DNA from: Nguyenibacter vanlangensis | Lineage (GTDB): Bacteria > Pseudomonadota > Alphaproteobacteria > Acetobacterales > Acetobacteraceae | Length of the DNA: 64,000 bases | Assembly: GCF_038719015.1 (NCBI RefSeq) | Contig: NZ_CP152276.1 | Location: 2,089,501-2,153,500, forward strand | Direction: 5' to 3' | Shown here: one piece after another, positions 15,149 through 33,090 of the stretch | Position numbering within the stretch: the first letter of the stretch is position 1 | Layout: every line of letters begins with the position of its first letter | Position numbers and translations under genes: made by a program | Notes under the pieces: generated by a model | The model's database searches: none | What the model was told of the DNA's origin: nothing | Seen by the model: only the letters and a program-made list of their open reading frames with translations

Positions 15149-16462
15149 TCACAGCATGACGGTGGACAACGCGCCGTCATCGCGCAGGCGCGTGCCGTAA
15201 CGGCCAGACAGGTCCGCGAAACGGCGCAGGATCGCAGTCCCCTCGTGCCCCTCGGCGAGGAAGGGCACGCCCCTTTTATGGGCGGCCTTCCCCAGGCCCA
15301 GGGACACGGGAAGGATCTCGATCGCCGACAGGGCGCCGTCCTCATCGAAGCGGCAGATCGGCACGATCGTTTCCCAGAAACGCCGATCGGCCGGGAAGCC
15401 TTTCCTGTCGTTTTCCGTCCGCGCCCGATAAACCATGTGGGTCGTCGTTTCCATGGGCACCTTGTAGAATTCGTACGATTCCCTGGGCAGGGCCTCGATC
15501 AGTTCGTTCTGCCCGATGAAATTTCCCAATCCGTAAAAGATTACCTTGCCCTTGTGGATTTCCATTCCTTTCAGAAGATGCTGGCCATGACACACCACGA
15601 TATCGGCCCCGGCATCGACGATCCGCCTGGCGAATTCCTCGACGAAGGCAGCCGGTGTCTCCCAGTTTGTTTCGCCGTCGTCCCCATATCCCACGTCATG
15701 GGTATGCAGGCTGACGATCACGACATCCGACACGTGGGCGGCCTCGCGCGTCCAGCGTTCGATATCCTGGACGTCGCGTTCATCGGGCAGGGTTTCCATC
15801 CGGCAGGATTCGCCCATCACGAAATCGAGTCCCGCGAACGGCAACGTACCGGCCGGCGGCGGATATTCGAAACCCAGCCGCACCTGCTGTTCCTTGATGC
15901 TGGCCAGGCCCAGCCGTTCATACATTTCCCGCAGCACGGCCATGTCGCCGGGCGTCACCCTGAAGCGCCGCTTGTGACGCAGCGGGTTCAGGCCCGGACG
16001 TCCCTGCATGCTACGCGTCTGGTCTGCGGCTTCCTGCCCGCGCGCGAAGGTCGAGCAGCACGATATCATCGCCACCGTCCCCTGGGGATGGGTCGCATAG
16101 ACCGGGCGGCGCGCGGCCTCCAGCGTCCGCCCGACGCCCGCGAACAGGATGCCGCGTGCCTCCAGACAATCCAGGGCGGCGCGGACACCCGCGACGCCGT
16201 AATCCAGGCTGTGGTTCGTCGCCGCAGCGAACAGCGAAAATCCCGCCTCGGACAGGTCGTCCAGCACCCACGGACGCGCGCTGAAATGTGACCCACCATG
16301 ATCGAACACCGGGTCGCCCTCGAAATTGCTTGGCAGCATTTCCAGATTCGTGAACGAAACGTCGCAGGCCCGGATCTTGTCGAACAGGCCGCGACAGGTC
16401 GGATCCGATAGGCTGTTCAGCCGCCGGAACAGGATACTGTCCCCGGTCAGGGAAATCTTCAT
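15149..16462 (-). CDS. CapA-family metallophosphatase-fold protein
   Basis: 437 residues. The start KISLTGDSILFRRL and later TNLEMLPS, AATNHSLDYG, VSLHTHDVGYGDD and VVCHGQHLLKGMEIHKGKVIFYGLGN match the CapA (PGA_cap) fold, a calcineurin-like sheet with metal ligands Asp, Asn and His. CapA itself is needed for poly-gamma-glutamate capsule, but many homologues sit in catabolic clusters and may hydrolyse amide or phosphate bonds. No signal peptide is seen, so it is probably cytoplasmic. It is the last gene of the minus-strand array, 39 bp after the PuuE-like gene. Confidence 0.75.
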   Translation of the reverse strand: MKISLTGDSILFRRLNSLSDPTCRGLFDKIRACDVSFTNLEMLPSNFEGDPVFDHGGSHFSARPWVLDDLSEAGFSLFAAATNHSLDYGVAGVRAALDCLEARGILFAGVGRTLEAARRPVYATHPQGTVAMISCCSTFARGQEAADQTRSMQGRPGLNPLRHKRRFRVTPGDMAVLREMYERLGLASIKEQQVRLGFEYPPPAGTLPFAGLDFVMGESCRMETLPDERDVQDIERWTREAAHVSDVVIVSLHTHDVGYGDDGETNWETPAAFVEEFARRIVDAGADIVVCHGQHLLKGMEIHKGKVIFYGLGNFIGQNELIEALPRESYEFYKVPMETTTHMVYRARTENDRKGFPADRRFWETIVPICRFDEDGALSAIEILPVSLGLGKAAHKRGVPFLAEGHEGTAILRRFADLSGRYGTRLRDDGALSTVML

Positions 16463-16501
16463 GTCATCCTCATAAAAGCATGTAAAAAACGGTCGCGGCG
16501 G

Positions 16502-17404
16502 TCAGGATTTCATGAACGCATCGGCTATCTGGCCCCGCGTCGCAACCCACACATTGTCGATGCCGCCAATATATTCGACGAATCTGCGCAGGCCTTCGGC
16601 CCGACCGGGCCGGCCCGCGATCCGGCAATGCAGGCTGATCGTCATCATCTTCGGGTGCGTGGCGCCCTCGCGGTACAGGCAGTCGAACGTGTCCTTGAGA
16701 TAGGCGAAGAAATCATCACCTTTCGCGAACCCGCCGCGCCAGAACTTGATGTCGTTCGCATCCAGGGCGTGGGGGACCACGCACCATTCGCGCCCGTTGA
16801 CGGAGACGACGTACGGCAGGTCGTCGGCGTAGGAATCACAATCGTAGTGAAACCCGCCATGTTCGACCAACAGCGCCCGCGTGCGCGCGCTGGGCGCGTA
16901 GCGGCAGTACCAGCCGGACGGTGCCCGCCCGGTCAGCACCTTCAGCAGGTCGTAGGCGCGGTGGATATGGTCCCGTTCGAGGTCCGGCGTCAGCCGGGAT
17001 ACCTCTTCCCAACGATAGCCGTGACAGACGATTTCATGCTGGGCGGCACCCGACAGATAGTTCGCCAGTTGCGGCGTGCGCCGCAACGCCACCGGGCAGG
17101 CATACATCGAGACCGGCAGCCCGAACTGGTCGAACAGGTCGATCAGGCGCCAGACCCCGGCTCGGCTACCGTATTCGAAGAACGACTCCATGGCCAGGTC
17201 ACGTTCGCCCGCCGCCGGCGCGCGGGACACCTCGCCCAGGGTCTCGCCATGCGAATCCCCGTCCAGCACGCTCTGCTCGGACCCTTCCTCCAGATTGATG
17301 ACGAAGGACACCGCGATGCGCGCGCCGCCTGGCCACCGGACAACGGGGGGCCGTCCGCCATACCCGACAAAATCGCGTCCGTTCGTTTCATCAGCAGCCG
17401 TCAT
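16502..17404 (-). CDS. PuuE-type polysaccharide-deacetylase-fold hydrolase (allantoinase or cyclic imidase)
   Basis: 300 residues. The NodB-like barrel carries VSFVINLEEGSE at the N-terminus and HEIVCHGYRWEE in the middle, both hallmarks of the PuuE/cyclic imide hydrolase branch; GWYCRYAPSARTRALLVEHG follows. PuuE opens allantoin without the usual cofactor, and relatives open cyclic imides. The start MTAADETNG was chosen because GGAGGGG lies about nine bases upstream. It lies 103 bp after the cyclic amidohydrolase gene, so two unrelated ring-opening enzymes are adjacent. Confidence 0.8.
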   Translation of the reverse strand: MTAADETNGRDFVGYGGRPPVVRWPGGARIAVSFVINLEEGSEQSVLDGDSHGETLGEVSRAPAAGERDLAMESFFEYGSRAGVWRLIDLFDQFGLPVSMYACPVALRRTPQLANYLSGAAQHEIVCHGYRWEEVSRLTPDLERDHIHRAYDLLKVLTGRAPSGWYCRYAPSARTRALLVEHGGFHYDCDSYADDLPYVVSVNGREWCVVPHALDANDIKFWRGGFAKGDDFFAYLKDTFDCLYREGATHPKMMTISLHCRIAGRPGRAEGLRRFVEYIGGIDNVWVATRGQIADAFMKS

Positions 17405-17507
17405 CGTCCAGATCCCCTCCGATCCTCGATATGTCGCGCCACCGGTCGGCAAAGGCATGTTCCCCCTGCGCCGACCGGCGGCAGGCGCCGTCGGCCCCGG
17501 CGCACCC

Positions 17508-18875
17508 TCATTGCGGAATACGGCCTGTCCACGGCCTGACACGCCGGCCGGAACCGGGCTGCGCCATCACGGTGTCGCCGTCATAGACCATGCGGCCGCG
17601 CAGGTAGGTCGCGGCGACCTTCCAGTCGATTTCCCGCCCGTCATAGGGGCTCCAGTCCGCGAAGGCGTTCGTGCTTGCCTGGGCGTCGTACGTCCAGCGT
17701 TCACGCTTCATGACCGTGATATCGGCGTCCAGCCCCGGCCGTAGCGCGCCCTTCTGCCCGGAAATCCGGAAAAGACGCGACGGATTGCAGGCCAGAAGAC
17801 GCGGCCCCCAGCTCAGGGACAGGCCCCGCCTGCCCAGCTCCGTCAGGAACAGCGGATAGATCACCTCCAACGATGGCACGCCCGACGCGTTGGCGAGCAT
17901 GTCGTCGTTCAGCTTGCGGTCCAGCGACCACGATACATGGTCGGTCGAGACGATGGTCACGTTCCCTGCGGCCAGGTGGTGCCATAGCCCTTCGACATCG
18001 CGTCGCGGGCGGATGGGCGGATTGACCTTCGCCTTGCCCGCCAGCCGGGCGACGTCGCCTTCCTCGTCCAGCAGCAGGTAATGGATGCAGGCCTCGATGG
18101 TCGTATCCGCGCCCTGCTGGCGATAGGCCGCGCAGAGTTCGTAGCCGCGGGGGATCGAGGCATGCACGACATGCGCCGAACAGCCCGTCGCCACCCCGAT
18201 TTCATAGATCTGGGTGATCGCCAGCGCCTCCGCCAAGGCGGGGCGGGACAGCCCGTGCGCCGACCAGTCGGACAGCCCCTTCTTCTTCACGTCCGCGATC
18301 GCGGACTTGACGTATTCGTCGTCCTCGTTGTGGACGCCGGCGGCCAAGCCGTATTGCGCGATCTCCGCAAAGCATTCGGCCAGCAGGGCGGAGGGAATCC
18401 GCGGGAAACGCTCGGGATGCGTCTCGAAAGTCGAGAATTTGAAACCCACGGCCCCCGCTTGCACCATACCGGCAATATCGCCGGCGCCGACGCGCGGGTC
18501 GATCGTCCCCCATAGGCCGAAATCGGTCCGGACCTGGGCGGCGGCCTCATTCGCCTTCTGCATCAGTCGGTCGGCATTGCAGACCAGGAAGCCGTCGTCA
18601 TAGGGCATGTCCATGATGGTCGTCACGCCGCCCGCCGCCGCCGCGCGCGTGGTCCAGACGAAATCCTCCTGCCCGGCCTGAGTGCGGGAATGGACCTGAG
18701 CGTCGATCCCGCCGGGCAGCAGCAGCGCGTCGCCGTAATCGACCAAGTTGTCGCAGGCGGGCGACGTGCCCTGCCCGATCTGGACGATCCTTTCGTCCGC
18801 GACCGCCACCCAGCCGTCCCCGATAACCGCGCTTTCGGTCACGACCGTACCCTTGAGAACAAAATCGATTTTCAT
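17508..18875 (-). CDS. Cyclic amidohydrolase (allantoinase/dihydropyrimidinase superfamily)
   Basis: 455 residues of the urease-like amidohydrolase superfamily. Visible metal-site residues are GGIDAQVHSRTQ (the first His of HxH is Gln, as in some dihydroorotase-like members), GAVGFKFSTF with the lysine that is carboxylated in the family, GVHNEDDEY, SAHVVHAS, and STDHVSWSL with the final Asp. Substrates of relatives are allantoin, hydantoins, dihydropyrimidines and dihydroorotate; sequence alone does not decide. It lies between the MFS carrier and the PuuE-like gene on the same strand. Confidence 0.85.
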   Translation of the reverse strand: MKIDFVLKGTVVTESAVIGDGWVAVADERIVQIGQGTSPACDNLVDYGDALLLPGGIDAQVHSRTQAGQEDFVWTTRAAAAGGVTTIMDMPYDDGFLVCNADRLMQKANEAAAQVRTDFGLWGTIDPRVGAGDIAGMVQAGAVGFKFSTFETHPERFPRIPSALLAECFAEIAQYGLAAGVHNEDDEYVKSAIADVKKKGLSDWSAHGLSRPALAEALAITQIYEIGVATGCSAHVVHASIPRGYELCAAYRQQGADTTIEACIHYLLLDEEGDVARLAGKAKVNPPIRPRRDVEGLWHHLAAGNVTIVSTDHVSWSLDRKLNDDMLANASGVPSLEVIYPLFLTELGRRGLSLSWGPRLLACNPSRLFRISGQKGALRPGLDADITVMKRERWTYDAQASTNAFADWSPYDGREIDWKVAATYLRGRMVYDGDTVMAQPGSGRRVRPWTGRIPQ

Positions 18876-18952
18876 GCCTTATCTCCATAGTCTCGACAAA
18901 CGCGATCGGACGACCGCTTAATGCGCCGCGTCGTTCCGCCCGTCATGACGCG

Positions 18953-20188
18953 TCATCCGTGTTCGCAGGACACCGCCCCCGTTCCACGCGGGGCCGGCGC
19001 CGCGCCGGGTCGACCGGGCAGGACAAACACGGTCACGACCAGATCGACGACATAGATGAACGCCAGGAATGCCAGCGCGCCGCCGAAGCTCAGTCGCGCG
19101 GCGGCGTACCCGATAACAAGCGGCGCCAGCCCCCCGCACGCCCGGCCGATGCTCCACAATACGCTCTGTGCCGTACTGCGGTTTTCCGAGGGATAATACG
19201 CGCCGACCAGTTCGCCATATCCGCCCATCATCCCGTTGACGAAGATGCCGGCGACGATACCCAGCAGCATAAGCGTCTGGCCGGACTGGACGCATGCGTA
19301 CAGCAGCACGATCATCGCGGCGCCAAGCTGATAGGACACGAAGGCCAGTCTGTAGCCGATCCTCGCCGATAGGCGCCCGAATAACAGGACCCCCACGATC
19401 ATCCCGACGACCATCAGCGCCGCAGCGAATCCCGAATGGATCATGCTGAACCCGCGTTCCTTCGTCAGATAGGAAGGAAGCCAGATCATCAGGCCGTAAT
19501 AACCAAAGTTCTGTATGAAGGCCATCGTGCAGATCGCAACGGAACTGCGTCGCCGGACCGGCGGATACCACAGTCCCTTCACCGGGTTTTCGCCCGCGGG
19601 ACGCAGCGCGCGCGCCGTCCGGAATTCGTCGGAATCCCGCACCCCGCGCCGGATGAAGAACGCCGCCAGCGCCGGCAGTCCCCCCACCACGAAGGCCCCA
19701 CGCCAGCCGACGACCGGCAGAAGCAGCGGCGTCACCAGCGACGCCAGCAACACCCCGATCTGCCAGCTCAAACCCACATAGGACGCGATGCGCGGCCGTT
19801 GCGCGATGGGATACGCCTCGGTCGCCAGCACCACGCCGACGCCGAATTCACAACCCATGCCAAGGCCCGCGCAGAACCTGTAGAACAGAAGATCGTAGAA
19901 CCCCGTTGAAAAAGCGGAAAGGATCGAAAATACAGAAAACACCAAGATCGAAAACGACAAGACCCTGGCCCGGCCGATATAGTCTGCCAGGATACCGAAT
20001 CCAGACCCGCCGATCGCACCGCCTACCAGCGTCCACGTCACCAAGACGCCGCTGTCGGTCGGCGACAACGCCAGGTCGTGCGACAGCGACGGCAGCATGA
20101 AGCTGAGCATCAGCATGTCGAAGCCGTCCAGGGCAAACCCCGCCATCGCCGCGATCAGGGCGCGCCGCGGATTGTCGTTTGCGTTCAT
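18953..20188 (-). CDS. MFS transporter (AAHS-like)
   Basis: 411 residues with about twelve membrane segments. The early motif ALDGFDMLMLSFMLPSL and the loop GILADYIGRARV resemble aromatic-acid:proton symporters and related organic-acid carriers. The start MNANDNPRR is preceded by AAGAGGCATG. It probably imports or exports a polar acid linked to the neighbouring hydrolases. It is the second inner-membrane transport system in this array, in addition to the ABC importer. Confidence 0.87.
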   Translation of the reverse strand: MNANDNPRRALIAAMAGFALDGFDMLMLSFMLPSLSHDLALSPTDSGVLVTWTLVGGAIGGSGFGILADYIGRARVLSFSILVFSVFSILSAFSTGFYDLLFYRFCAGLGMGCEFGVGVVLATEAYPIAQRPRIASYVGLSWQIGVLLASLVTPLLLPVVGWRGAFVVGGLPALAAFFIRRGVRDSDEFRTARALRPAGENPVKGLWYPPVRRRSSVAICTMAFIQNFGYYGLMIWLPSYLTKERGFSMIHSGFAAALMVVGMIVGVLLFGRLSARIGYRLAFVSYQLGAAMIVLLYACVQSGQTLMLLGIVAGIFVNGMMGGYGELVGAYYPSENRSTAQSVLWSIGRACGGLAPLVIGYAAARLSFGGALAFLAFIYVVDLVVTVFVLPGRPGAAPAPRGTGAVSCEHG

Positions 20189-20359
20189 ATGGCATGCCTC
20201 TTTCCAAAGATGACCGTCATGAAGCACCTGTCCGGCACGCGCCGAACGATGCAATATTTGCGCTGGTGATCCGCGCCGGTCGTCGTGGCCTTCATCCGAT
20301 GTCCTCGCCGGTCTCGTGACGGATCGCGTCGGTACGGACGCACGGGACTTTTGTGGGGC

Positions 20360-21130
20360 CTACTGGGCCATCCATCCCCCATCCACCATCAGGTTGTGGC
20401 CCGCGATATAGGTGGCATCGTCACTGGCCAGGAACAGAACCGCGTACGCCACGTCCCGGGGCGTTCCCAGGCGCGGCATCGGGGTACGCCGCCTGGAATA
20501 GTCAAGACACTCGGGATCAACGGCGGCGCCCGTCTTGCCGGTCAGGATCTTGCCCGGCGCCACGGCGTTGCAGACGATGAAGTCCCTTGCGTAATCGGTG
20601 GCGACCTGCCTGGTCATATAGACAAGCCCCGCCTTACTAACGCCATAAGCGAAATCGCGCGGCGCGCCGATCATGCCGTGCTGGGACGTGATGTTGACGA
20701 TCCGCCCCCGGGCGTCGTTCACGATGTCCTGCGTCAGCATCTGGCGCACGGCTTCCCGCAGGCAGAGATAGGCACCCTTCAGGTTGACGTCCATGACACG
20801 GTCCCAGTCTGCCTCGGTCGTCTCCGCCAGGGGCAACCCGCCGCGGACCATCGCGTTGTTGACCAGGATATCGACACGACCGTACCGTGCTACGACCTGA
20901 TGAAACAGCGATCGAACATCAGCTTCTTTCGAAACGTCGGCCCTGACGAACATGGTCTTGTCCGTCAGTCGGCGCAGGACATCGATGACGGGTTCGCCGC
21001 CCTCCACGACGTCTTCGGTAATGTCGGCGGCGATGACGGCCGCGCCCTCCTGGGCGAAAAGCAGGGCGATGGCCCGGCCGATGCCGGAGGACGCTCCCGT
21101 GACGATCGCGATCTTGTCTGGCAGGCGCAT
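20360..21130 (-). CDS. SDR-family NAD(P)-dependent oxidoreductase
   Basis: 256 residues, a complete classical short-chain dehydrogenase: TGASSGIGRA cofactor loop, DVSK, LVNNAMV, ITSQHG with the catalytic Ser, YGVSK with the catalytic Tyr and Lys, and the C-terminal GGWMAQ. The substrate is not predictable. Its start lies nine bases after the ABC ATPase stop, so it is the gene following the importer. A 171-bp gap separates it from the MFS gene. Confidence 0.9.
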   Translation of the reverse strand: MRLPDKIAIVTGASSGIGRAIALLFAQEGAAVIAADITEDVVEGGEPVIDVLRRLTDKTMFVRADVSKEADVRSLFHQVVARYGRVDILVNNAMVRGGLPLAETTEADWDRVMDVNLKGAYLCLREAVRQMLTQDIVNDARGRIVNITSQHGMIGAPRDFAYGVSKAGLVYMTRQVATDYARDFIVCNAVAPGKILTGKTGAAVDPECLDYSRRRTPMPRLGTPRDVAYAVLFLASDDATYIAGHNLMVDGGWMAQ

Positions 21131-21139
21131 GGCGAACCC

Positions 21140-21913
21140 TCAGTGACGGATAATCTGTTGCAGGAAGGCGCGGGTGCGGTCGTGCGCCGGTGCCTGGAAA
21201 AAGACGTCCGGCACGTTCCGTTCCACGATCCGGCCGGCGTCCATGAAAATGACCTCATCCGCGACGCTGCGGGCAAAACCCATTTCATGGGTCACGCAGA
21301 CCATCGTCATGCCGTCCCCGGCCAGACCGACCATGACATCCAGGACCTCCCGCGTCATTTCCGGGTCCAGGGCGGATGTCGGCTCGTCAAAGAGCATGAT
21401 CCTGGGCTCCATGCACAGGGCGCGCGCAATGGCGACGCGCTGCTGCTGCCCGCCTGAAATCGCCAACGGACGCTTGTCCGCATGGGCCGAAAGCTTGACC
21501 CGCTCCAGATAGAACCGGGCCAGGCTTTCGGCCTCGGCCTTCGATTTCCCGCGCACTTTCATCGGCGCGATCATCAGGTTTTCCAGGATGCTAACATGCG
21601 GAAACAGGTTGAAATGCTGGAACACCATCCCGACATCCCGCCGAATCAGGTCCAGCCTTCTGGCTTTCCCGTTGATGGCCAGGCCGTTGATATGCAGTTC
21701 GCCGCCGTCGAATCGTTCCAGTCCGTTCATGCAGCGGATCAGCGTGGACTTCCCCGAGCCCGATGGACCGCAGATGACGACGCGCCTGCCCGGCGCGATC
21801 GAAAGGGTGACATCCTTCAGGACCTGAAAACTGCCGTAATGTTTCTGGAGCGCGCGCACGTCGATGGCGGGGACGCCGTCGGTACGCTTCGGCGCATGAG
21901 TGTTACATGTCAT
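21140..21913 (-). CDS. Polar amino-acid type ABC transporter, ATP-binding protein
   Basis: 257 residues: Walker [11 protein letters not shown]-loop [12 protein letters not shown], signature [15 protein letters not shown], Walker [15 protein letters not shown], and switch [13 protein letters not shown]. This is the GlnQ/HisP type that pairs with two HisM/GlnP-like permeases and a family 3 binding protein, all encoded just upstream. Its ATG overlaps the end of the inserted epimerase gene by eleven bases. Confidence 0.93.
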
Positions 21914-22880
21914 CGGGATATTGCTCCAGCCAGCCAAGAAAGTCGGCGACGGCCGCTGTGCCCGCGAATCGCGGTTCATGCCCCGTGTCCCGCACCAGGC
22001 GGTCGATCGAAAGCGGGGCGCGGTCGCGCTGTAGTGCCGAGCGGATATTGCTGTCCTCACCCGGGCCGGCCAGGACGACGGACGCGCCACGCAGGGCGGT
22101 CGCCATGGCGCGTCCCCATTCGACGACGGTGCTGGTGTCGCCGCTTCCTATATTATAGATGTCGTGCGTCAGTCCCGGGGCCAGCGCAAGCGCCGCGATC
22201 CCCGCGCCGGCATCGCGGCTGTACAGCCAGTCTCCCGCCATGGGCCTGTCCAGAACGGCTGGCTTGCCGCGCAGCAGCAGCGCCAGAAGCTGCGCGTGGG
22301 GGCTGAGCATGGGGCGTACCGCCGTGCCATGTTCCCAAGGGCCATAGACCGGCCCGATGCGGGCGACCCGAACATCCAGTCCATAAATTTCCCCGAGCCG
22401 AAGCGCCGTTCTTTCCGCCGCCGCCTTGCTGATGCCGTACAGGGTGGACGGCGCGAGCGGCCGGCTTTCCGGAATCTCTCCTTCTGCCGGATCCACGGGG
22501 CCATAGACCGCCACGCTGCTCGCGATCACGACGCGCTGCAGACCCGGGACGGCCCGCGCCGCCGCCATCAGCGATGCGACGCCCGAGATATTGATCTCGG
22601 TCACGCGCGCCGGCGCGGCCCGTTCCGCGTCCGGATCGGGGGTGACGGCCGCCAGATGGATGACGATATCCGGCCGGCTGGCCCCCAGCGCACGGTCAAG
22701 GTCATATGCCGAACCGATATCGCCCTGGATAAAGCCCATGCCCCGAAAGGGCGCCCTTTCCCCGAACCGTGGCGGAACGGCCGTCGTCGCGAACAGGACC
22801 GGCATATGCCCCTGCGCGAGAAGCGCTTCCGCCACGGCCAGTCCGATGGAGCCGGTGCCGCCTGTCACGAAGATTTTCAA
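21903..22880 (-). CDS. NAD-dependent epimerase/dehydratase family protein
   Basis: 325 residues of the extended SDR class: [17 protein letters not shown], the catalytic YGISK segment, and [10 protein letters not shown] near the substrate side. The start appears to be TTG at 22878-22880, within TTGA where it overlaps the permease stop by four bases, with GGGAGGG upstream. The unusual start was preferred because the Rossmann fold begins exactly there and no ATG is near. The product may be a UDP-sugar-like epimerase or act on the imported compound. Its position inside an ABC importer operon is odd. Confidence 0.85.
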
Positions 22881-23557
22881 ATATCGGCCCTCCCCAACAG
22901 CGCCGCTCGCTCCATGCGCGAGACGAGGTGGGAAAACGGCCATAGCAGGACGAAAAAGATGACACCCACAGCGGTCAGGGGCGTGGGATTGTAGATCTGT
23001 TCCTGCGCGATCTGGGCGGAACGGATCAGTTCCGGAATCGCGACCAGCCCGGCGATCGACGTGGTCTTGACCAGTTCCAGGGCGTTGCTGGCCAACGGCG
23101 CGGCGACCTTGCGCAGGACCTGCGGCAGAATGAGATGGAGTGTGGCCTGCGCGCGACGAAATCCCAGGGCCAAGGCTGCTTCCATCTGCGCCGGCGGCAC
23201 CGATTCGAGCCCGGCGCGGAATATTTCGCTGAAATAGCCGGTATTGTTGAGGACGATCGCAGTCACGACGGCGGAAAAGCCGCCGAGCGTGATCCCCAGA
23301 AACGGCAGGCCATAATAGATCAGGATCAACATCATCAGGACCGGAAAAGCCCTCATCAGGTCGATCAGCACCAGCATCACCCGCCGGACCCTCTGTCCCG
23401 AGAAACTGTAGAAAAGCGCGACGCAGAGCCCGCACAGCACGGCCATCGGCAACGCGGCGGCGGACAGTAGAAGCGTAAGCCGAAGCCCCTGCCACAGCAG
23501 ATACCGGACCGTCGCGAGCGACGAAATATTGAAGAAATCCGTCAGGAACAGGTGCAT
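22877..23557 (-). CDS. ABC amino-acid type permease (second)
   Basis: 226 residues with about five membrane segments, HisM/GlnP type. The EAA loop reads EAALALGFRRAQATLHLILP and contacts the ATPase. The upstream part has LIDLMRAFPVLMMLILIYY. It is paired with the permease encoded 12 bp upstream and coupled by overlap to the epimerase gene. Confidence 0.92.
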   Translation of the reverse strand: MHLFLTDFFNISSLATVRYLLWQGLRLTLLLSAAALPMAVLCGLCVALFYSFSGQRVRRVMLVLIDLMRAFPVLMMLILIYYGLPFLGITLGGFSAVVTAIVLNNTGYFSEIFRAGLESVPPAQMEAALALGFRRAQATLHLILPQVLRKVAAPLASNALELVKTTSIAGLVAIPELIRSAQIAQEQIYNPTPLTAVGVIFFVLLWPFSHLVSRMERAALLGRADI

Positions 23558-24295: not shown

Positions 24296-25162
24296 TCAAC
24301 GACAATTGAGATCATGCGGCCTGGCGTCGTACCCCGAAAATCCCGGAGGCCCGAAACCCGGATAGATGGTGGTCAGGGGATTGTCCTTTGGAGGAGCCGA
24401 CCCGTACCATCTGGTATAGAGCCTGGCCAGGACGCCCTTCCGTTTCAGGCATTCGATGGCCCGTTCGGCCCGGTCGCGCAGCGCCACGTCGCCTCGGCGG
24501 AAGGCATAGGCGAAATTCCGGCCGTCGAAATCCCTGTAGGCGACTTCGATCAGCGGATTTCTGCTGGCGGCATAAATGGTGGTCGGGATTTCGTTCAGGG
24601 CCGTAAAGGCCCGCCCGGTCAAAACGGCCAGCACGGAATCAGGAAATGTCTCATAACGCTGGACCGTGAAGCCGTATCGGTTCTGGTTCTGTGCCGCCCA
24701 TATGTCGGACAGAGTGCCGCGATTCACCGCCAGAATTTTTCCCCGGAGATCTTCCAGCCCCGCCATCCTTTCCCCCTTGAGCACGATGAAGCCGTTGCCC
24801 GTCGCAAAGATGGGCTCGCTGAATAGCAGCCGCTCGCTACGCTCCCGCGTTATGTTGAGGGGATTAACCGTCATGTCGATCCGGGCGGAGAACAGCGCCG
24901 GGAACAGCCCGGAAAAATTGATATCCTCGATATCGACCGCGCCGTAGCCCATGTCCCGGGCAACCGCGCGGATCAGATCGACCCCGAAGCCTTCCGGACC
25001 GTCGCGCCCCCGGACGATCCACGGTGCCACGCCGAAATCCGACCCGACCGTCAAGGTCCCGGAAGGCGACGACGACGGCGATGGCGCGGCCCCGCGCACC
25101 GTTCCCGAAACCATGACCAGCACCGCAGACAGGACAGCACCGTACAATTTCATCATCTGCAT
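24296..25162 (-). CDS. Periplasmic solute-binding protein, family 3
   Basis: 288 residues. A signal peptide (MQMMKLYGAVLSAVLVMVSG) precedes a two-lobed SBP_bac_3 domain: TLTVGSDFGVAPW, EGFGVDLIRAVARDMGY, IDMTVNPLNITRERS. Family 3 proteins bind amino acids, opines and related zwitterions; the ligand is not identifiable by eye. It directly follows the large inverted repeat that separates it from the TonB receptor gene, and starts the ABC importer set. Confidence 0.9.
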   Translation of the reverse strand: MQMMKLYGAVLSAVLVMVSGTVRGAAPSPSSSPSGTLTVGSDFGVAPWIVRGRDGPEGFGVDLIRAVARDMGYGAVDIEDINFSGLFPALFSARIDMTVNPLNITRERSERLLFSEPIFATGNGFIVLKGERMAGLEDLRGKILAVNRGTLSDIWAAQNQNRYGFTVQRYETFPDSVLAVLTGRAFTALNEIPTTIYAASRNPLIEVAYRDFDGRNFAYAFRRGDVALRDRAERAIECLKRKGVLARLYTRWYGSAPPKDNPLTTIYPGFGPPGFSGYDARPHDLNCR

Positions 25163-25275: not shown

Positions 25276-25285
25276 GGCCCTGGCG

Positions 25286-28210
25286 TCAGAAGGCCACGCC
25301 GGCCTGCAGCCAGACATAGCGTCCAATCATTTCTTCACCGTAAAGTCCGCTGGCCGTATTGTAAACGGCTGTCGGGATATAGGGGGGTGCCTTGTTGAAC
25401 AGGTTGTTGACCCCGCCATCCAGATGCCATTTGCCGAAATCATATCCGACCGTGACGTCATGGGACGTGATCGGACTGACTCGGTAAACCGTATTGGTCT
25501 TGGCGGTCAGGTCGGTGGTGCCATTGTTTAGCACCATGCCACCCGTGAAGTTCATCATATAGCTGGCACGAAAATTCCCGTGATACCAGTTGGCGGCGAA
25601 GTAGTCCTTCACGCGCGGAAAGCCGTACCCGGCGGAATAGATCATGCGGCCGTTATAATTCAACCATGGGCCGCCCGGGCTGTTCTGCTGCTGGTAGCTG
25701 ATGATTTCCTGCATATTGTTGGAAATCACCACGGTATCGTCCATCGTCAGGCGAATGGGATAGCTGAGGTCGAAGTCGATGCCGCCCGTCCGGACGCCGC
25801 CGAGATTCTGATAGACTGACGAGACCTGCGTGATCTGTCCCGAGGAACTGCGCGGCGCGACGTCGCTGCAATAGGCTGTGTTCAGCCCTTCGTAGCATTG
25901 ATCAAGGATATATTGCGGATTAACGGTGCTGATGGCGTTCTTGATCGTATAATGCCAGTATTCCACAGAGATGTTCAGCCCGGGAAGGATACGCGGCGTG
26001 ATGACGGTGCCGAACGTATAAGTCCGCCCCTGTTCGGGCTTCAACGCCTTGTTGCCGCCGGACAGAACCGGAAGCTGCCCCGACCAGGCCGACGTAAAGT
26101 GGTTCGCGTCCACGCCGGCCTTGGCGCAGTTCTGAACGACGGCGGAGCTGAGCCCGCCATAGGTGCGCGCTTGCGAGCAGGGATCGATCGCCGATGTCAG
26201 CGCCAGGGTATTACCGCCATACAGTTCGTAGATGCTCGGCTGGCGATAGGACGTCCCGAGCGTGGCCCGGAAACGGATATCGCGTGTGGGTGCCCAGTTG
26301 ATGCTGCTTTTCCAATTCTGCGTCGAACCAAACGTGTTGTAGGACGACCAGCGGCCCTGCGCGCCCACGGTCAGATCCTTGGCGAAGGCGGCATTCTGCA
26401 GAAGGGGCACGCGCAGTTCGCCATAGACTTCGTTGGCATTGAAGCCGCCGCCGGTCGGGGCCGCGCTTTCGCCCGCAATCTGCCCGGCCGCGATCAGCGG
26501 ATCGGGATGAAAGCTGCCCTGCTCGCCGCGATGTTCCATGCCGAACGCCAGGCCGACATTGCCGCCATTCTGGTACGGCAACTTGACCAGATTGTTGTTG
26601 TGAATCCGCAGGTTGAAGTCCCGGAGCTGGTAGCTGGCACTGCTGTGCTGCGTATAGCTGATGTAATGGGCGCCCTGTCCGGACCACGGCACGAAGGGAT
26701 TGACGAGTTGGCAGCCGGCGGAACCCGCGCAGACGGACGGGTTATATATGATGGGGCCCGACGAGCTGCCCGGGTTGAGCTGTTCGACACCCAGTTCCTG
26801 CAGAAGATGGGCGTAATTGATGTCGTTGGTCGTCTGGAAGGCCGACTGGCTGGAACCATACGCCATGGACGCGTCGTAGTGCCAGTCGCCGAAAATCTGC
26901 CCGCGCGCGCCGGACGTCACCTGATAGGTATCGACGGCGGCACTCAGTTCGCGCGGCCCGAGTTCGGCGAAGCGCTTGTACAGGCCGACATTTTCCCCCC
27001 AGATATTGTAGGGATTCCCCGCCGGAAGCGTCAGGGAACTCAGCAGCGTGGATTCGGGATTGCCGCTGCCGGGCACACCCAGCCCCGTGATGCCGGACGT
27101 GGTGCGATGGGCATAGTTGACCTGGCTGTAAATCGTCATGTGGCGGTTGATATCGTAATGGAAGTCGCCATTCAGATTGGAGGACTGCGTATAGCCCACC
27201 ATCGTCTGATCCATGCCATAATTATAGTTGTCCGACGAATTGTATTTTGAAAAGGTACCGTTGTTATTGCTGATAAGGTTCATTCCGGCCGGATCGACGC
27301 GGGTGCGGGACGTGATGGACGATCCGAAAATCGCGGCTGCGCCGGGTGCGGGGTTGTTGCTGGACGCATCGCGCGACCAGGAACGGTCGCGCTGATACGT
27401 CCCCCCCTGGGTCATGTACTGGCCGAAGAACGAGATGTTCCCCCGGTCATGATCGAAATTGAAACCCTTGTGCGCCGAAATCCGTCCCGTCCGGTCGTCG
27501 CCCACATCCGTAATGCCGCCACGCACGGAAATCGCCGCGTCGTTGACGTCGTGTCTGAGCTTGATATTGACCACGCCCGAGACGGCATCCGCGCCATAGA
27601 GTTCCGAACCGCCATCCTTCAGGATTTCGACCGACGCGATCTGGTCCGTCGCAATGGCGTTCAGGTCTACGCAGGACGTGGACGCACCCATCGTCTGGAC
27701 CATCCTTTTCCCGTCAACAAGGACAAGAACGCGGGACTGTCCCAGGTTCCGCAGATCTACGCAGGACAAGCCGTTTCCCGCAATCGATTTCGCGTTGGAG
27801 GTACCTGTGGACCCGATGGACGGCAGGCGCAGCAGGTAGTCCCCGATCGTCGTCGCCGACGTGTTCTGAATATCGGCGGCCTTGACGGTCTGGACGGGGT
27901 TGGGGTCGGAGTTACGCGCGACGCCAAGGTAGGATCCGGTCACGACCACGGCCTCCGCCTCCACGGGTGCGGCCGGCTGAGATGACGGGATCGCCATCGT
28001 GCGGCTTGTCGCGGGCCTTGTCGCGGTCGCGATCCTGGCGTCCCTTTCCACGCGGGGCGACGGCACCGGGACCTTGCGGGCCACGACCGTCTTGCCGCGG
28101 GCAGGCTTGTGCGTGGGCGCATCCGATGCGGCATGCGCACCGCCGCCGCCCATCGCGACCAAGACGCATACGCCGCATAGAAGCCGGAACCGTGTTTTCG
28201 TGATGATCAT
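25286..28210 (-). CDS. TonB-dependent outer-membrane receptor
   Basis: About 974 residues. A signal peptide (LLCGVCVLVAMGGGGAHA) is followed by a low-complexity linker, a TonB-box-like AEAVVVTGS, and the plug domain (YLLRLPSIGSTGTSNAKS, VLVDGKRMV, VEILKDGGSELYGADAVSG). The barrel ends GRYVWLQAGVAF with a terminal Phe. The start was chosen at MIITKTRF because TTTGGAGGGG precedes it. There is no STN domain, so no sigma/anti-sigma signalling is expected. It heads the minus-strand array and probably imports the island's substrate across the outer membrane. Confidence 0.92.
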   Translation of the reverse strand: MIITKTRFRLLCGVCVLVAMGGGGAHAASDAPTHKPARGKTVVARKVPVPSPRVERDARIATATRPATSRTMAIPSSQPAAPVEAEAVVVTGSYLGVARNSDPNPVQTVKAADIQNTSATTIGDYLLRLPSIGSTGTSNAKSIAGNGLSCVDLRNLGQSRVLVLVDGKRMVQTMGASTSCVDLNAIATDQIASVEILKDGGSELYGADAVSGVVNIKLRHDVNDAAISVRGGITDVGDDRTGRISAHKGFNFDHDRGNISFFGQYMTQGGTYQRDRSWSRDASSNNPAPGAAAIFGSSITSRTRVDPAGMNLISNNNGTFSKYNSSDNYNYGMDQTMVGYTQSSNLNGDFHYDINRHMTIYSQVNYAHRTTSGITGLGVPGSGNPESTLLSSLTLPAGNPYNIWGENVGLYKRFAELGPRELSAAVDTYQVTSGARGQIFGDWHYDASMAYGSSQSAFQTTNDINYAHLLQELGVEQLNPGSSSGPIIYNPSVCAGSAGCQLVNPFVPWSGQGAHYISYTQHSSASYQLRDFNLRIHNNNLVKLPYQNGGNVGLAFGMEHRGEQGSFHPDPLIAAGQIAGESAAPTGGGFNANEVYGELRVPLLQNAAFAKDLTVGAQGRWSSYNTFGSTQNWKSSINWAPTRDIRFRATLGTSYRQPSIYELYGGNTLALTSAIDPCSQARTYGGLSSAVVQNCAKAGVDANHFTSAWSGQLPVLSGGNKALKPEQGRTYTFGTVITPRILPGLNISVEYWHYTIKNAISTVNPQYILDQCYEGLNTAYCSDVAPRSSSGQITQVSSVYQNLGGVRTGGIDFDLSYPIRLTMDDTVVISNNMQEIISYQQQNSPGGPWLNYNGRMIYSAGYGFPRVKDYFAANWYHGNFRASYMMNFTGGMVLNNGTTDLTAKTNTVYRVSPITSHDVTVGYDFGKWHLDGGVNNLFNKAPPYIPTAVYNTASGLYGEEMIGRYVWLQAGVAF

Positions 28211-28674
28211 CAACCCCTCCAAATCGTACCCGCCGTCCGGACGCCCACCCGATCCCGCACACGCACGTGACCGGCTATTCATTCATATTCGGGTCCCTGC
28301 CCGGATCGTCCTCGGACGATGCCGCCCCGGCATGGTTGTCCGTCGCATTGTTGTCCCGTTGCATTTCGTTATCATAGCGGAAGGGACACAACACGAAACG
28401 AAAACTATGTTCTGGCTATATAAAAACTCCCCTTCCCGTCTTGCGCACAATGTCCGGCGTTCATTCATGACGGGAAGATCCGGTATATGGAGAGAAAATC
28501 CTGCCACGATATGAGATATTACGCTTGACGAGCAATGCACGACGGGTACGCGGGATGCGTGCCGCCATCCGCGCGACCCACTAGTTTTTCTATCGTATCA
28601 AGAAACAAAATCATGCTTAACCAGCGATGGACAGCGACATAAGAGACTGAACGCACGACGTACGAGGAAAACCC
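28211..28674. other. Divergent control region of the accessory island
   Basis: 464 bp between the TonB receptor and the VOC gene, visibly richer in A and T than the flanking genes. It must hold both promoters. On the minus strand TATGAT (28371-28376) is a possible -10 for the receptor; TATATAAAA at 28417-28425 marks the most AT-rich part. TTGACG at about 28514 may be a -35 toward the VOC gene, but no convincing -10 matches. No ORF is believable here. Confidence 0.45.
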
Positions 28675-29094
28675 ATGCCCAATCCGTTTCATATCGCCTT
28701 TCCCGTCGACGACCTGGAGGCAGCCAGGCGTTTTTACGGCGAATTGCTGGGATGTCCGGAGGGACGAAGCTCCGATACGTGGATCGATTTCGATCTTTTC
28801 GGACATCAGATCGTGGCTCACCGGGTCGGCGACGATTCCAAAAACGATAGGTGCGGACTGGTCGATGCCAAAGAGGTGCAGATCCCGCATTTCGGCGTCG
28901 TTCTGGACATGGAAGATTGGAAGGCGCTGGCCGAAAAACTGACGGCCCGTGGCACCGAATTCGTCATGCCGCCGCAGATCCGCTTCGTGGGCATGCCAGG
29001 CGAGCAGGCAACGATGTTCCTTCTCGATCCGGCCGGCAATGCCATCGAGTTCAAGGCGTTCGCCGACATGAAGCAGCTCTTCGCGAAACATTAG
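28675..29094 (+). CDS. VOC-family protein
   Basis: 139 residues with a glyoxalase/bleomycin-resistance fold: [20 protein letters not shown] at the start, [14 protein letters not shown] in the middle, and [15 protein letters not shown] with the metal-ligand Glu position near the end. It lies 56 bp before the M20 hydrolase gene and probably shares its transcript. In such pathways VOC proteins may be epimerases, lyases or dioxygenases; none can be chosen here. Confidence 0.85.
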
Positions 29095-29150
29095 TTCCGC
29101 GTCCGGACGGATGCGTCGCCCCGGGTATCGCGATGTGGAAGGGAAAATCG

Positions 29151-30443
29151 ATGGAACAGACCATACATCACCCGGCAGGCGACGGCGCGCATGCCCTGGA
29201 CCGAAAGGTCGCCGAATATCTGTTCTCCGCGCTTCACGATATCGGCTTCGACGGCCAGGGCATCACGCGCGCCACCTACGGGGCCGGCGAGAACGCCGCC
29301 CACCTGTTGATCGAAACCACGGCGCGCGGGATGGGTCTTGAAATCCGCCACGACTGGGCGGCCAATCTCTATGTCACCCTGCCGGGCCGCGATCGCTCCC
29401 TGCCCGCCGTCATGACCGGCTCGCACATGGACAGCGTGCCCGGTGGAGGGAACTATGATGGCGCCGCCGGCGTGGTGGCGGGTCTGACCGTCCTGGCGGC
29501 GTGGAAGACGGCGGGCTTCATCCCCGACCGCGATGTGACGGTGATGGCGATCCGGGCAGAAGAAAGCGCGTGGTTTCCTATTTCCTATCTCGGCAGCAAG
29601 GCGGCCTTCGGGCTGCTGGGCGAAAGCGACCTTGAAACCCCGCGCAATGACGGTGCCGGCACGCTGGCGGACATGATCCGCCTGGCCGGTGGCCGACCCG
29701 ACGACCTGGCGCAGCCGGCGCTGCATCCGGCGGCGATCGACAGCTTCATCGAACTGCATATCGAACAAGGCCCCGTCCTGCTGGAGCGGGATTACCCGGT
29801 CGGAATCGTCAGCGGGATCTGTGGCAGCATACGCTACCGTTCGGCAGCCATTCACGGGCAATATGCCCATTCCGGCGCGACGCCCCGGAATTACCGCGCC
29901 GACACCGTCATCGCCGGCGCGGCGTTCATGCTGGCCATACAGCGGGAATGGATCCGGCGCGAAGACGCCGGTCAGGAAATGACCCTGACGTTCGGCGTCT
30001 GCCGTACCGAAGCCGACCTGGCGCATTTCAGCGCCGTGGCCGGGCGGCTTGATTTTTCGATCGACGTGCGCTCGCGCGATACGCGCCTGCTACGCGAGGT
30101 CGATGACTTCATCCATGCCCAGGCCCGCGCGATCGGACAGGCGCATCATGTCCGCATCGCCCTGGGCCAGCAGACGTCTACCACCCCTTCGGTATCGGAT
30201 GACGCGCTGGTGCAGCGCGCGATGGACAGCGCCACGGGCATGGGCATTCCGGCGATCGGCATGCCCAGCGGTGCGGGCCATGACACCGCGCTGTTCGCCA
30301 CGCAGGGCATTCCGACCCTCATGATCTTCGTCCGCAACGAACACGGAAGCCATAATCCCATGGAAAGCATGGAACTTTCTGATTTCATGCAAGGCTGCGC
30401 CGTTCTGGAAGCCGTCCTGCGCGGCCGCGCCACGACCAGCTGA
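29151..30443 (+). CDS. M20-family amidohydrolase (N-carbamoylase/allantoate hydrolase type)
   Basis: 430 residues. Metal-site segments TGSHMDSVPGGGNYDGAAGV, RAEESAWF, HIEQGPVLLE and SGAGHDTALFA place it with the hydantoinase/carbamoylase/AllC branch, which removes carbamoyl groups from N-carbamoyl amino acids or allantoate using two divalent metals. The start MEQTIHHPAG was chosen because GGAAGGG precedes it; MWKGKS six codons earlier is possible. The enzyme would act naturally after a ring-opening amidohydrolase, and one is encoded in the opposite array. Confidence 0.88.
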   Translation: MEQTIHHPAGDGAHALDRKVAEYLFSALHDIGFDGQGITRATYGAGENAAHLLIETTARGMGLEIRHDWAANLYVTLPGRDRSLPAVMTGSHMDSVPGGGNYDGAAGVVAGLTVLAAWKTAGFIPDRDVTVMAIRAEESAWFPISYLGSKAAFGLLGESDLETPRNDGAGTLADMIRLAGGRPDDLAQPALHPAAIDSFIELHIEQGPVLLERDYPVGIVSGICGSIRYRSAAIHGQYAHSGATPRNYRADTVIAGAAFMLAIQREWIRREDAGQEMTLTFGVCRTEADLAHFSAVAGRLDFSIDVRSRDTRLLREVDDFIHAQARAIGQAHHVRIALGQQTSTTPSVSDDALVQRAMDSATGMGIPAIGMPSGAGHDTALFATQGIPTLMIFVRNEHGSHNPMESMELSDFMQGCAVLEAVLRGRATTS

Positions 30444-30459
30444 ACCGGGCGGATCGACG

Positions 30460-31404
30460 ATGCTGTGCTGTTTCGTGACCCAGCCGATCGACGACCATGC
30501 CGTCGCGTTCCTGCGCGAACATGGCGTCGCGGTGCGGTTCGCGTCACGCGCCACGATGGAATGCGTTGCGGCGGAAATAGGCGATGCGCAGGCGGTCATT
30601 ACACGCGATCTCGGCCTGGACGGCGCTGCGATCCGTAGCGCGTCCGCGCTGCGCATCATCGCCTCGCACGGCGCGGGCACGAACAACATCGCGATCGCCG
30701 AGGCCAGGGCGCGTGGGATCGTCGTCACGCGGACCCCAGGCGCGAACAGCCGTTCGGTGGCTGAACTGACGATCGGGCTGATGCTCGCCGCCGCCCGACG
30801 ACTTTGCGATGCCGACAGGGCGGTCCGCGCGGGACACTGGGATTTTCGCTATGATAGCGGCGGCGTCGAACTGCATGGCCGCACGCTCGGCCTGGTCGGA
30901 TTCGGCGCCGTGGCCCGGCATGTGGCGTGGATCGCGGGCCACGGCTTCGGCATGACCGTCCATGCCTGGTCCCCCAGCGTGCCCGATTGCGTCTTCGCCG
31001 ACCATGACGTCCGGCGTGCGCCCGACCTGCCGTCCCTGGCCGGCGCGTCGGACATCCTGTCGCTGCACAGGCCGTCCGACCCGGGCCAGCCGCCGATTTT
31101 CGACGCCGGACTGGCCCAGGTCCTTCGTCCCGGCACCATCCTGGTCAATACCAGCCGCGGCTCTGCCATCGACAGCCGGACCCTGCTGGCGGCGCTGGCA
31201 GACGGTCGAGTTGGCGCGGCGGGGCTGGACGTCCTGCCGCAGGAGCCCCCATCCGCGCACGAGCCACTGCTGGCAAGCGACCGCGTCGCGCTGTCACCCC
31301 ATATCGGCGGCGCGACGGCCGAGGCCCTGCGCCGTACGGCGATGACTTGCGCCCGTCAGGTCCTGGACGTCCTGTCGGGCCGCGCGCCGCCCGACAGGCT
31401 GTAG
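30460..31404 (+). CDS. D-isomer-specific 2-hydroxyacid dehydrogenase
   Basis: 314 residues. The catalytic triad is visible: Arg in NTSRGSAID, Glu in GLDVLPQEPP, His in SPHIGGAT. The NAD loop reads GFGAVARHV, with Ala replacing the third Gly of GxGxxG. Reduces 2-keto acids or oxidises D-2-hydroxy acids. It follows the M20 hydrolase by 16 bp, suggesting that a hydroxy- or keto-acid arises in the pathway. Convergent with the SDR gene 7 bp away. Confidence 0.88.
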   Translation: MLCCFVTQPIDDHAVAFLREHGVAVRFASRATMECVAAEIGDAQAVITRDLGLDGAAIRSASALRIIASHGAGTNNIAIAEARARGIVVTRTPGANSRSVAELTIGLMLAAARRLCDADRAVRAGHWDFRYDSGGVELHGRTLGLVGFGAVARHVAWIAGHGFGMTVHAWSPSVPDCVFADHDVRRAPDLPSLAGASDILSLHRPSDPGQPPIFDAGLAQVLRPGTILVNTSRGSAIDSRTLLAALADGRVGAAGLDVLPQEPPSAHEPLLASDRVALSPHIGGATAEALRRTAMTCARQVLDVLSGRAPPDRL

Positions 31405-31411
31405 GCACCCG

Positions 31412-32185
31412 TCAGAGCGACCCCACCAGGCCGCCGTCGACGCGGACGAGCGTCCCCGTTACATAACCGGCGCGCGCGCTGGCCAGAAACGTCACCATAT
31501 CCGCGAATTCGGCCGGGTCGCCGTACCGTTTCATCGGAATGGCGTCCCGCGACGCGCGGGATACGTCCTCGACCGGCCGGCCCTGGCGGGCCGCCGCCGC
31601 CACGTTCAGGCTATCGACCCGCCGCGTGTGGATGCGCCCCGGCACGACCGAATTCACGGTGACGCCGTCCGCCGCCACTTCCACCGACAGGGTCTTGGCC
31701 CATCCGACAAGCGCGGGGCGCAGCGTATTGGACAACGCGAGATTCGCGATCGGCTGCAGCACGCCGGACGAGATGATATTGATGATCCTGCCGAACTTCC
31801 TCTGCCGCATGCCGGGAAGGTACATTTCGACCGTGGCGATCGGCACGCGCACCATGGCGGTGAAATACCGGTCCAGATCCGCCATGTCGATATGGGCGGC
31901 ATCGCCCGGCGGCGGGCCGCCGCAATTCGTCACGACGATATCGACGTCGGCGATATCCTTTTTTATGCCGAAGAGCGGCGTCATGTCCTGAAAGTCGGCG
32001 ACATGGATCGACGCCCGGCCGCCCGCGGCGCGGATGGCGTCGCACGATGCCTCAAGCGACTGGCGATGCCGGCCGGTCAGAACGACATGCGCGCCCTCGC
32101 GGGCAAGGCTGGCGGCACAGGCATAGCCCAGTCCCTGGCTCGACCCCATGACCAGGGCGACCCGCCCCGCAAGACCCAGATCCAT
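31412..32185 (-). CDS. SDR-family protein of the GGPP type, lacking the usual YxxxK
   Basis: 257 residues with MGSSQGLGYACAASLA at the nucleotide loop, TNCGGPPPGDAA, and IINIISSGVLQPIANLALSN. In place of the classical Tyr-x3-Lys the sequence reads LALSNTLRPAL, so the normal proton-relay residues are absent. This variant recurs in a recognised SDR subgroup annotated as 3-oxoacyl reductases. Its chemistry is uncertain. It lies between the 2-hydroxyacid dehydrogenase and the LysR gene and is cotranscribed with neither for certain, although LysR (35 bp upstream) is on the same strand. Confidence 0.85.
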   Translation of the reverse strand: MDLGLAGRVALVMGSSQGLGYACAASLAREGAHVVLTGRHRQSLEASCDAIRAAGGRASIHVADFQDMTPLFGIKKDIADVDIVVTNCGGPPPGDAAHIDMADLDRYFTAMVRVPIATVEMYLPGMRQRKFGRIINIISSGVLQPIANLALSNTLRPALVGWAKTLSVEVAADGVTVNSVVPGRIHTRRVDSLNVAAAARQGRPVEDVSRASRDAIPMKRYGDPAEFADMVTFLASARAGYVTGTLVRVDGGLVGSL

Positions 32186-32220
32186 CCCGTCCTCCCGATT
32201 TCATCCCATCCCGTGGCGCG

Positions 32221-33090
32221 TCAGAACGCGCAGCTTTCGAGATTTTCCCTGAACTTGCGGATCGCGTCGCTGTTGGACGACGACAATGTCCAGAGAAATC
32301 CGATATGCCGCTGCGGACAATCGTCGGGCAGCGCCAGCTTACGCACGGACAGTCCCGATGGCCATGGCGGCGCCCAGTCCGGCAGCAGTGCCACGCCGAT
32401 ATTGTGGCTGACCATGATGCTGATCGCCTCCAGCGCGTCCATGTCGAGCTGACTTTTGGGAACGATTCCGTTCTGGCGCATGAAATTATCGACGATGCGT
32501 CCTCCCCACTGGCTTCTGTCGTAGCGCAGGAAAAGGTGATTCTTCAGCACCTCGATCGGGTCCGTCATCGCGCACTTGTCCGACGTCAGCACGATCATGG
32601 GTTCGGAACGCAGCCTGACCCATCCGCATGACTTGGGAACGGGAAAGGGCGGTTCCACGATGACCGCGCCATCCAAGCGGCCCATGAAGACGTCGTCATA
32701 TAGCTTCAGCGACTGGCCTGGCGTCACCTGCAGCTCGACATTGGGATTTTCCGCAAGGAAGCTCTTGATCGCCTGGGGAAACAGTCCCGTCAGGGCGGAG
32801 GATATCGCACCGATATGCAGGTTGCCGGCCAGCGTGTCGTGACTTGCGATCCGCTTGAGTTCCATGGCGGCGGAAATGATCTCGCGGCTCTTGTCCAGGA
32901 TCGCGCAGCCCGACGGCGTGGGCACGACCGTGCGCCCCACCCGCATCAGCAAAGGCTGCCGGATCTGGTCTTCCAGGGCCTTGATCCGCTGGGACACGGC
33001 GGCGGGCGTAATGCCGAGCTGCCTTGCCGCATCGGCGATCGAGCCACGCTCGACGACGGACAGGAAACTTTCAAGGAACCTGATGTCCAT
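32221..33090 (-). CDS. LysR-family transcriptional regulator
   Basis: 289 residues: N-terminal winged helix (FLESFLSVVERGSIADAARQ, AAVSQRIKALEDQI) and a ligand-binding domain beginning near GNLHIGAIS. The start MDIRFLESF follows AGGGAGAG. It lies at the border of the accessory island and is the only regulator in it, so it is the natural candidate for controlling the transport and hydrolase genes in response to the substrate. Confidence 0.92.
   Translation of the reverse strand: MDIRFLESFLSVVERGSIADAARQLGITPAAVSQRIKALEDQIRQPLLMRVGRTVVPTPSGCAILDKSREIISAAMELKRIASHDTLAGNLHIGAISSALTGLFPQAIKSFLAENPNVELQVTPGQSLKLYDDVFMGRLDGAVIVEPPFPVPKSCGWVRLRSEPMIVLTSDKCAMTDPIEVLKNHLFLRYDRSQWGGRIVDNFMRQNGIVPKSQLDMDALEAISIMVSHNIGVALLPDWAPPWPSGLSVRKLALPDDCPQRHIGFLWTLSSSNSDAIRKFRENLESCAF

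Follow-up and report, generated by a model that had tools for sequence, protein, structure and literature searches.

A genomic island of Nguyenibacter vanlangensis that may break down a small hydantoin-type ureide and encodes a CapA protein related to the lasso-peptide epimerase MslH

Introduction

Hydantoins and related cyclic ureides are the probable concern of a 16-gene island that we describe here from the acetic-acid bacterium Nguyenibacter vanlangensis. The whole stretch analysed, hereafter the window, comprises 64,000 nucleotides (positions 2089501-2153500 of the contig, in a genome of 4.75 Mb), and the island fills 15149-33090 of it. In general terms, the island is likely to serve the catabolism of ureides; that the substrate is a small 5-substituted hydantoin-type ureide, and that the two gene modules of the island serve a single pathway, has in our estimate close to an even chance.

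The closest described systems are few. The ergothioneine pathway includes thiourocanate hydratase, thiohydantoin desulfurase, hydantoin-5-propionate amidohydrolase (ErtD) and the carbamoyl-glutamate hydrolase ErtE, the enzyme names following NCBIfam. Hydantoin racemase is a member of the Asp/Glu superfamily. The hydantoinase process consists of hydantoinase, racemase and carbamoylase, the racemase being either hydantoin racemase or an N-succinyl-amino acid racemase with promiscuous N-carbamoyl activity (PMC7431475). MslH, a lasso-peptide epimerase, has the Ca(II) ligands Glu44, Asn87, His259 and His261 and the dyads His88/Asp91 and His295/Asp11 (PMC10406935).

Judged by its genes alone, the island resembles the hydantoinase process in having an ErtD-type amidohydrolase, an M20-family amidase (TIGR01879 269 bits against a cut-off of 204) and a suspected epimerase. 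However, the candidate for the racemase step is a calcineurin-fold CapA protein, and no Asp/Glu-family hydantoin racemase domain was found by Pfam among the 16 island proteins. With the ergothioneine pathway the island has in common an ErtD above the curated cut-off, sister to the copy in the genome's own ergothioneine locus; thiourocanate hydratase and thiohydantoin desulfurase are not among the 16 proteins (Pfam) but are present at that second locus, the M20 enzyme falls short of ErtE (266.3 against 520), and PuuE, CapA, dehydrogenase, ABC and TonB genes are extra. CapA shares the full-length fold and eight residues of MslH, but in a catabolic context. Finally, an uncharacterised operon of rhizobia, Bosea, Thioclava, Paroceanicella and a comamonad shares PuuE, a solute-binding protein (SBP), two permeases, an NAD epimerase and a short-chain dehydrogenase (SDR1) with the island. 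In that operon a ureidoglycolate lyase homologue precedes PuuE and PuuE precedes the SBP, whereas the island has no such homologue, places PuuE downstream of SDR1, MFS and ErtD, and adds CapA, M20 and a D-2-hydroxyacid dehydrogenase (D2HDH). Among the papers that searches of an open-licence library listed, no title or abstract opening described the island or a CapA-type catabolic racemase.

An acquired and maintained island

Pfam and NCBIfam scans of 15149-33090 identified all 16 genes and placed every class named in the first-pass annotation where it had been reported. SBP, permeases, NAD epimerase, SDR1 and PuuE are referred to as module A, and M20, D2HDH, VOC and CapA as module B.

15149..16462, minus strand: MslH-like protein of the CapA/PGA_cap family; putative Calpha epimerase acting on an N-carbamoyl (or N-acyl) amino acid
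16502..17404, minus strand: PuuE-like ring-opening amidase of the polysaccharide-deacetylase family (TIGR03212 351 bits, cut-off 424.6; PDB 3cl6 PuuE allantoinase, E 7e-89)
17508..18875, minus strand: ErtD paralogue, cyclic amidohydrolase of hydantoinase type (NF058538 727.9 bits, cut-off 600)
18953..20188, minus strand: MFS carrier (MFS_1; among NCBIfam subfamilies aromatic acid/H+ symport scores best, short of the cut-off)
20360..21130, minus strand: SDR1, module A (58-74% identity across seven module A loci)
21140..21913, minus strand: ABC importer ATPase, polar amino acid type (Pfam and module A comparison)
21903..22880, minus strand: NAD-dependent epimerase/dehydratase-family oxidoreductase, module A (PF01370 131 bits; 37-48% identity in seven module A loci; start assumed to be the TTG at 22880)
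22877..23557, minus strand: ABC permease 1 (Pfam and module A comparison)
23570..24235, minus strand: ABC permease 2 (Pfam and module A comparison)
24296..25162, minus strand: family 3 SBP (PF00497; glutamine-type binding proteins among the nearest solved relatives)
25286..28282, minus strand: TonB-dependent receptor (PF00593 and PF07715)
28283..28674, no strand: region between the divergent gene groups (conserved blocks and an inverted repeat)
28675..29094, plus strand: VOC-family protein, module B (PF00903; elsewhere beside M20, CapA and D2HDH)
29151..30443, plus strand: M20 hydantoinase/carbamoylase-family amidase, proposed N-carbamoyl-amino-acid hydrolase (PRK12891 472 bits, cut-off 461; TIGR01879 269, cut-off 204; ErtE 266.3, below 520)
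30460..31404, plus strand: D2HDH, module B (PF02826 and PF00389; nearest solved structures PGDH 1wwk and McyI)
31412..32185, minus strand: SDR2, short-chain dehydrogenase (47% identity to an SDR of the R. johnstonii pRL12 cluster)
32221..33090, minus strand: LysR-type regulator (PF03466 and PF00126)

Among named organisms, the region most like this one is that of Gluconacetobacter dulcium LMG 1728 (amidohydrolase 89% identical), in which the same 16-gene block occupies the same chromosomal site, between MlaC and GNAT genes. Seven of 11 other congeneric loci (L181, L183-L188) show the arrangement without the island: MlaC, then GNAT-EttA-PPase (pyrophosphatase) and tRNA-Met, with 87-416 bp between the MlaC and GNAT match edges. 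The remaining four (L179, L180, L182, L189) had no GNAT or EttA match after MlaC within the fetched stretch; given these four, the site may be a recurrent rearrangement point.

The G+C content of the island is 0.634, against 0.700 (1-15148) and 0.688 (33091-54000) in the flanks: a site unoccupied in relatives thus coincides with a deviating composition, as in genomic islands generally. Of 14 genomes from the genus, two encode the NAD epimerase (E<=1e-30); the 12 negatives include one fragmented assembly. Ratios of nonsynonymous to synonymous divergence (dN/dS) between the window and G. dulcium lie at 0.055-0.224 across the 16 genes, and such low values argue that the genes are maintained. The accessory island proposed from the sequence is therefore real: inserted between MlaC and GNAT, acquired, and kept by selection. 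Among the 16 island proteins Pfam found no integrase or transposase, smaller reading frames lying outside that scan. Synonymous divergence from G. dulcium is 0.63-1.17 in the island and 0.37-0.58 in three flanking genes, a gap that could reflect separate gains or different codon bias.

The ErtD paralogue

ErtD matches above cut-off occur in 5 of 385 class genomes. The island amidohydrolase is, among the matches listed, the only one of ten island proteins scanned against NCBIfam to pass an equivalog cut-off, which bears out the earlier view that the set is no standard allantoin or hydantoin operon. In a tree, the island and G. dulcium copies form the sister group of the ErtD encoded in the genome's ergothioneine locus (support 99/99). 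Five ErtDs from Ert operons agree with one another in 219 columns, part of these all-gap; against that set the two island copies show 28 fixed differences, four being terminal gaps. One difference (Ala239 for Cys) falls inside the HVVHA stretch and none in the other four stretches inspected; with so few changes there, opening of a small hydantoin that bears a short acidic side chain is probably still the reaction of the island enzyme. For the larger cyclic amide suggested in the first-pass annotation we find no support, since the kinship with ErtD points to this smaller kind of ring.

A CapA protein related to MslH

The product of 15149..16462 had been described as CapA-like. The CapA domain is present, but fold and residues favour a corrected label, that of an MslH-type epimerase relative: the protein matches the full-length fold of MslH (PDB 8GQ9), and in the alignment all eight metal-binding and catalytic residues of MslH are kept. 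We propose Calpha epimerase activity. The MslH pocket residues Ile319 and Leu348 are replaced by Asn and Arg in 31 of 32 aligned rows, and Leu355 by Gly in 32 of 32, so that the Trp pocket is probably lacking. The polar Asn319/Arg348 pair hints at an acidic substrate, to which we give little weight; the model is weak at the pocket (316-323 and 351-361 below 50 in pLDDT, the predicted local distance difference test), and MslH itself has an Arg one position off in the alignment.

The neighbourhood of CapA genes elsewhere bears on the same proposal. M20 genes lie close to CapA at 12 of 26 loci, against 0 of 30 for comparison (Fisher p 1.7e-5; related loci were treated as independent, so this is not a true probability). 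The M20 profile was built from eight proteins, several of them from CapA loci themselves, and the count excludes four loci at 35-38% identity (L051, L052, L139, L140). There were 37 CapA places including the window's own, 20 of them fetched and 16 others not; of the 286 plasmid records with a CapA match, six were fetched. At L051 genes annotated as M20, M55 and M28 peptidases lie near CapA, and in a congener (L146:7362-12626) a D-aminoacylase-like amidohydrolase gene overlaps CapA, an apparent TonB receptor gene adjoining.

One Acetobacteraceae locus (L142) has both CapA and a racemase-like gene (39% identity to the comamonad one), which weakens the view of CapA as a plain substitute for an Asp/Glu-type hydantoin racemase; epimerisation of the N-carbamoyl acid was for this reason kept as the proposed role. 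Tentatively, and at rather less than an even chance, we suggest that a branch of the CapA/poly-gamma-glutamate family comprises unrecognised catabolic racemases, metal-dependent and independent of pyridoxal phosphate (PLP), for N-carbamoyl or N-acyl amino acids. In bacteria, and perhaps in haloarchaea, their partners would be M20 amidases, D-aminoacylases and hydantoinases, and the island's own member would complete a self-contained hydantoin pathway with active transport across the outer membrane.

A proposed pathway

We propose the following substrate, order of reactions and regulation. The ureide would enter through the TonB receptor and the polar-amino-acid ABC importer, together with the MFS carrier. 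Its ring would be opened by the ErtD paralogue, by the PuuE-like enzyme (possibly acting on a second ureide) or by both, giving an N-carbamoyl amino acid whose side chain is probably acidic, as in N-carbamoyl-glutamate. The MslH-like CapA would epimerise its alpha carbon, making both stereoisomers usable, and the M20 enzyme would decarbamoylate the product. SDR1, the NAD epimerase-family enzyme, SDR2, D2HDH and VOC may process hydroxyl groups or the carbon skeleton, and LysR may govern both divergent gene groups. The region between these groups (28283-28674) shares the blocks 28389-28414, 28597-28622 and 28630-28647 with G. dulcium, and an inverted repeat (28587-28605) adjoins conserved blocks; we would guess that a LysR site lies in this region.

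Were the proposal correct, a testable role in catabolism could be assigned to proteins now annotated as capsule enzymes, a dedicated racemase of N-carbamoyl amino acids, with a new fold, would join the hydantoinase process, and the recurrent module A operon would offer a way into substrate discovery. Even with a wrong substrate, two conserved modules and an unoccupied site make the question directly testable.

One pathway or two modules

Searching for the gene set in other genomes, as the first-pass annotation had suggested, showed co-occurrence in modules, and no clear orthology of the set to a described pathway. The claim of a single block holds in that G. dulcium has the same 16 genes, but M20, D2HDH, VOC and CapA form a second module.

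Module A loci were taken from the best SDR1 or NAD epimerase matches, a non-random choice. In the window SBP, two permeases, NAD epimerase and SDR1 follow one another on one strand, with PuuE further down. Seven plasmid loci have, in the same transcription direction, an AllA (ureidoglycolate lyase) homologue, PuuE, SBP, two permeases, NAD epimerase and SDR1: Neorhizobium petrolearium (L055), Bosea (L056), a comamonad (L057), Thioclava (L060), Rhizobium SSA_523 (L063), Rhizobium WYJ-E13 (L064) and Paroceanicella (L109). The AllA homologue of L055, the sole one scanned, is below AllA cut-offs among the matches listed. Looser variants (L053, L058, L059, L062, L110-L112) have a dihydropyrimidinase, an AllB-like enzyme, a thiamine pyrophosphate (TPP) enzyme or Asp/Glu-type racemases. 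A cyclic ureide is the common thread of module A and its variants; this company, with an ErtD above cut-off, agrees with the import and opening of a cyclic ureide envisaged at the outset. On the Klebsiella oxytoca plasmid pIron_OXY (L058:8400-16700) a related ureide cluster has ABC, NAD epimerase, SDR1, racemase-like, dihydropyrimidinase and FAH-family genes.

For module B, CapA relatives at 54-63% identity in other Acetobacteraceae include loci with M20, D2HDH and VOC, ordered CapA-VOC-M20-D2HDH (L141), M20-CapA-D2HDH with VOC more distant (L142) or LysR-M20-CapA-D2HDH-VOC (L143, L144); L145 has LysR-M20-CapA and a D2HDH relative about 9 kb away. L143-L145 contain 5-oxoprolinase genes. L142 has an ErtD-like gene below cut-off (502 bits) and a PatB-type C-S lyase above its own; the L142 cluster (L142:1000-19400: racemase-like, ErtD-like, PatB C-S lyase, peptide ABC, M20, CapA, D2HDH, VOC) may handle a sulfur-bearing hydantoin. 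An M20-D2HDH pair, with no CapA in the stretch read, occurs on two rhizobial plasmids and in Salipiger beside 5-oxoprolinase and D-amino-acid transaminase genes, which hints at D-configured intermediates that need handling. At 2.50 Mb in the window's genome lies a TonB-MFS-5-oxoprolinase locus, where the 16 kb read contained no M20, CapA, D2HDH or VOC gene.

The main rival to a common pathway is that two independent modules share one insertion site: A for an allantoin-like or hydroxylated ureide (PuuE with dehydrogenases), B for N-acyl amino acids or small peptides, and ErtD a loosely linked third. Among the loci read, both modules occur together only in the window and G. dulcium, the nearest to this being L060 (module A, VOC, LysR) and L112 (NAD epimerase, PuuE-like, M20); module B elsewhere stands beside oligopeptide ABC systems or 5-oxoprolinase genes; and the AllA homologue that partners PuuE in 7 of 7 module A loci has no close relative in the window's genome (best E 0.149, with one homologue as query and the curated AllA families unsearched). 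Yet both modules and ErtD are kept together in two species, both face one intergenic region with conserved blocks and share one LysR, and L142 links an ErtD-like gene, albeit from another tree branch, to module B. We consider the two-module explanation unlikely, though the strongest of the alternatives.

Several observations weigh against the single hydantoin pathway. Module A elsewhere comes with the AllA homologue and, in the loci read, without ErtD; given that the homologue has no close relative in this genome, the substrate of module A may be a different one. SDR1 (E<=1e-60) is found in 19 of 385 class genomes, and of the 19 SDR1 loci (window's own excluded) only L094 has the module A SBP and permeases (55-62%), while PuuE relatives are labelled in four: L097 and L101 (49-51%), L099 and L103 (29-33%). 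SDR1 was dropped as a pathway marker because of this low count; racemase-like genes occur at L093 and L099. The M20 enzyme is below the ErtE cut-off, and CapA reaches 353.7 bits where the MslH family (NF038314) demands 700. The eight MslH residues are also kept in relatives at 35-38% identity and may mark a wide metallophosphatase-like family, and at 13 of the 26 CapA loci no M20 or D-aminoacylase-like gene lies nearby.

Ergothioneine and allantoin

A second ErtD of the genome lies at 3.78 Mb, about 1.7 Mb from the island, at a locus that also encodes thiohydantoin desulfurase (592.6, cut-off 440) and thiourocanate hydratase (988.7, cut-off 930). The finding of this second locus led us to reject the reading of the island as the ergothioneine operon itself. 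It might instead be accessory to it, finishing hydantoin-5-propionate from that locus or from histidine breakdown, as the ErtD paralogue and the desulfurase, hydratase and HutI above cut-offs in the same genome would allow. This we regard as improbable: the distant locus has its own ErtD and M20 gene, the island has separate importers and neither hydratase nor desulfurase, and other ring-openers accompany module A elsewhere. That PuuE opens allantoin and M20 is an allantoate amidohydrolase is very improbable, for although both belong to the families of these enzymes, they score below cut-off (PuuE as listed; AllC 208.8 against 597.75), no close AllA relative emerged from the search above, and CapA, TonB and the dehydrogenases would be unaccounted for.

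Other features of the genome

The stretch 3775000-3790000 (L037 with L038) is the likely ergothioneine utilisation locus. It adds an M20 gene and a HutH-like lyase. The lyase is below every cut-off among the matches listed and was left unnamed; it may take the place of ergothionase. Upstream, genes resembling those for MFS carriers and TonB receptors were recognised by eye. A second low-G+C stretch of the window (53000-64000; 0.49-0.61 from 54000 on) encodes, with names given by eye, GlxA/DJ-1-like proteins, a TonB receptor, LysR regulators and a DMT-type carrier. A tmRNA gene lies at 9739-10088 on the minus strand, with the tag ANDNFEALAVAA.

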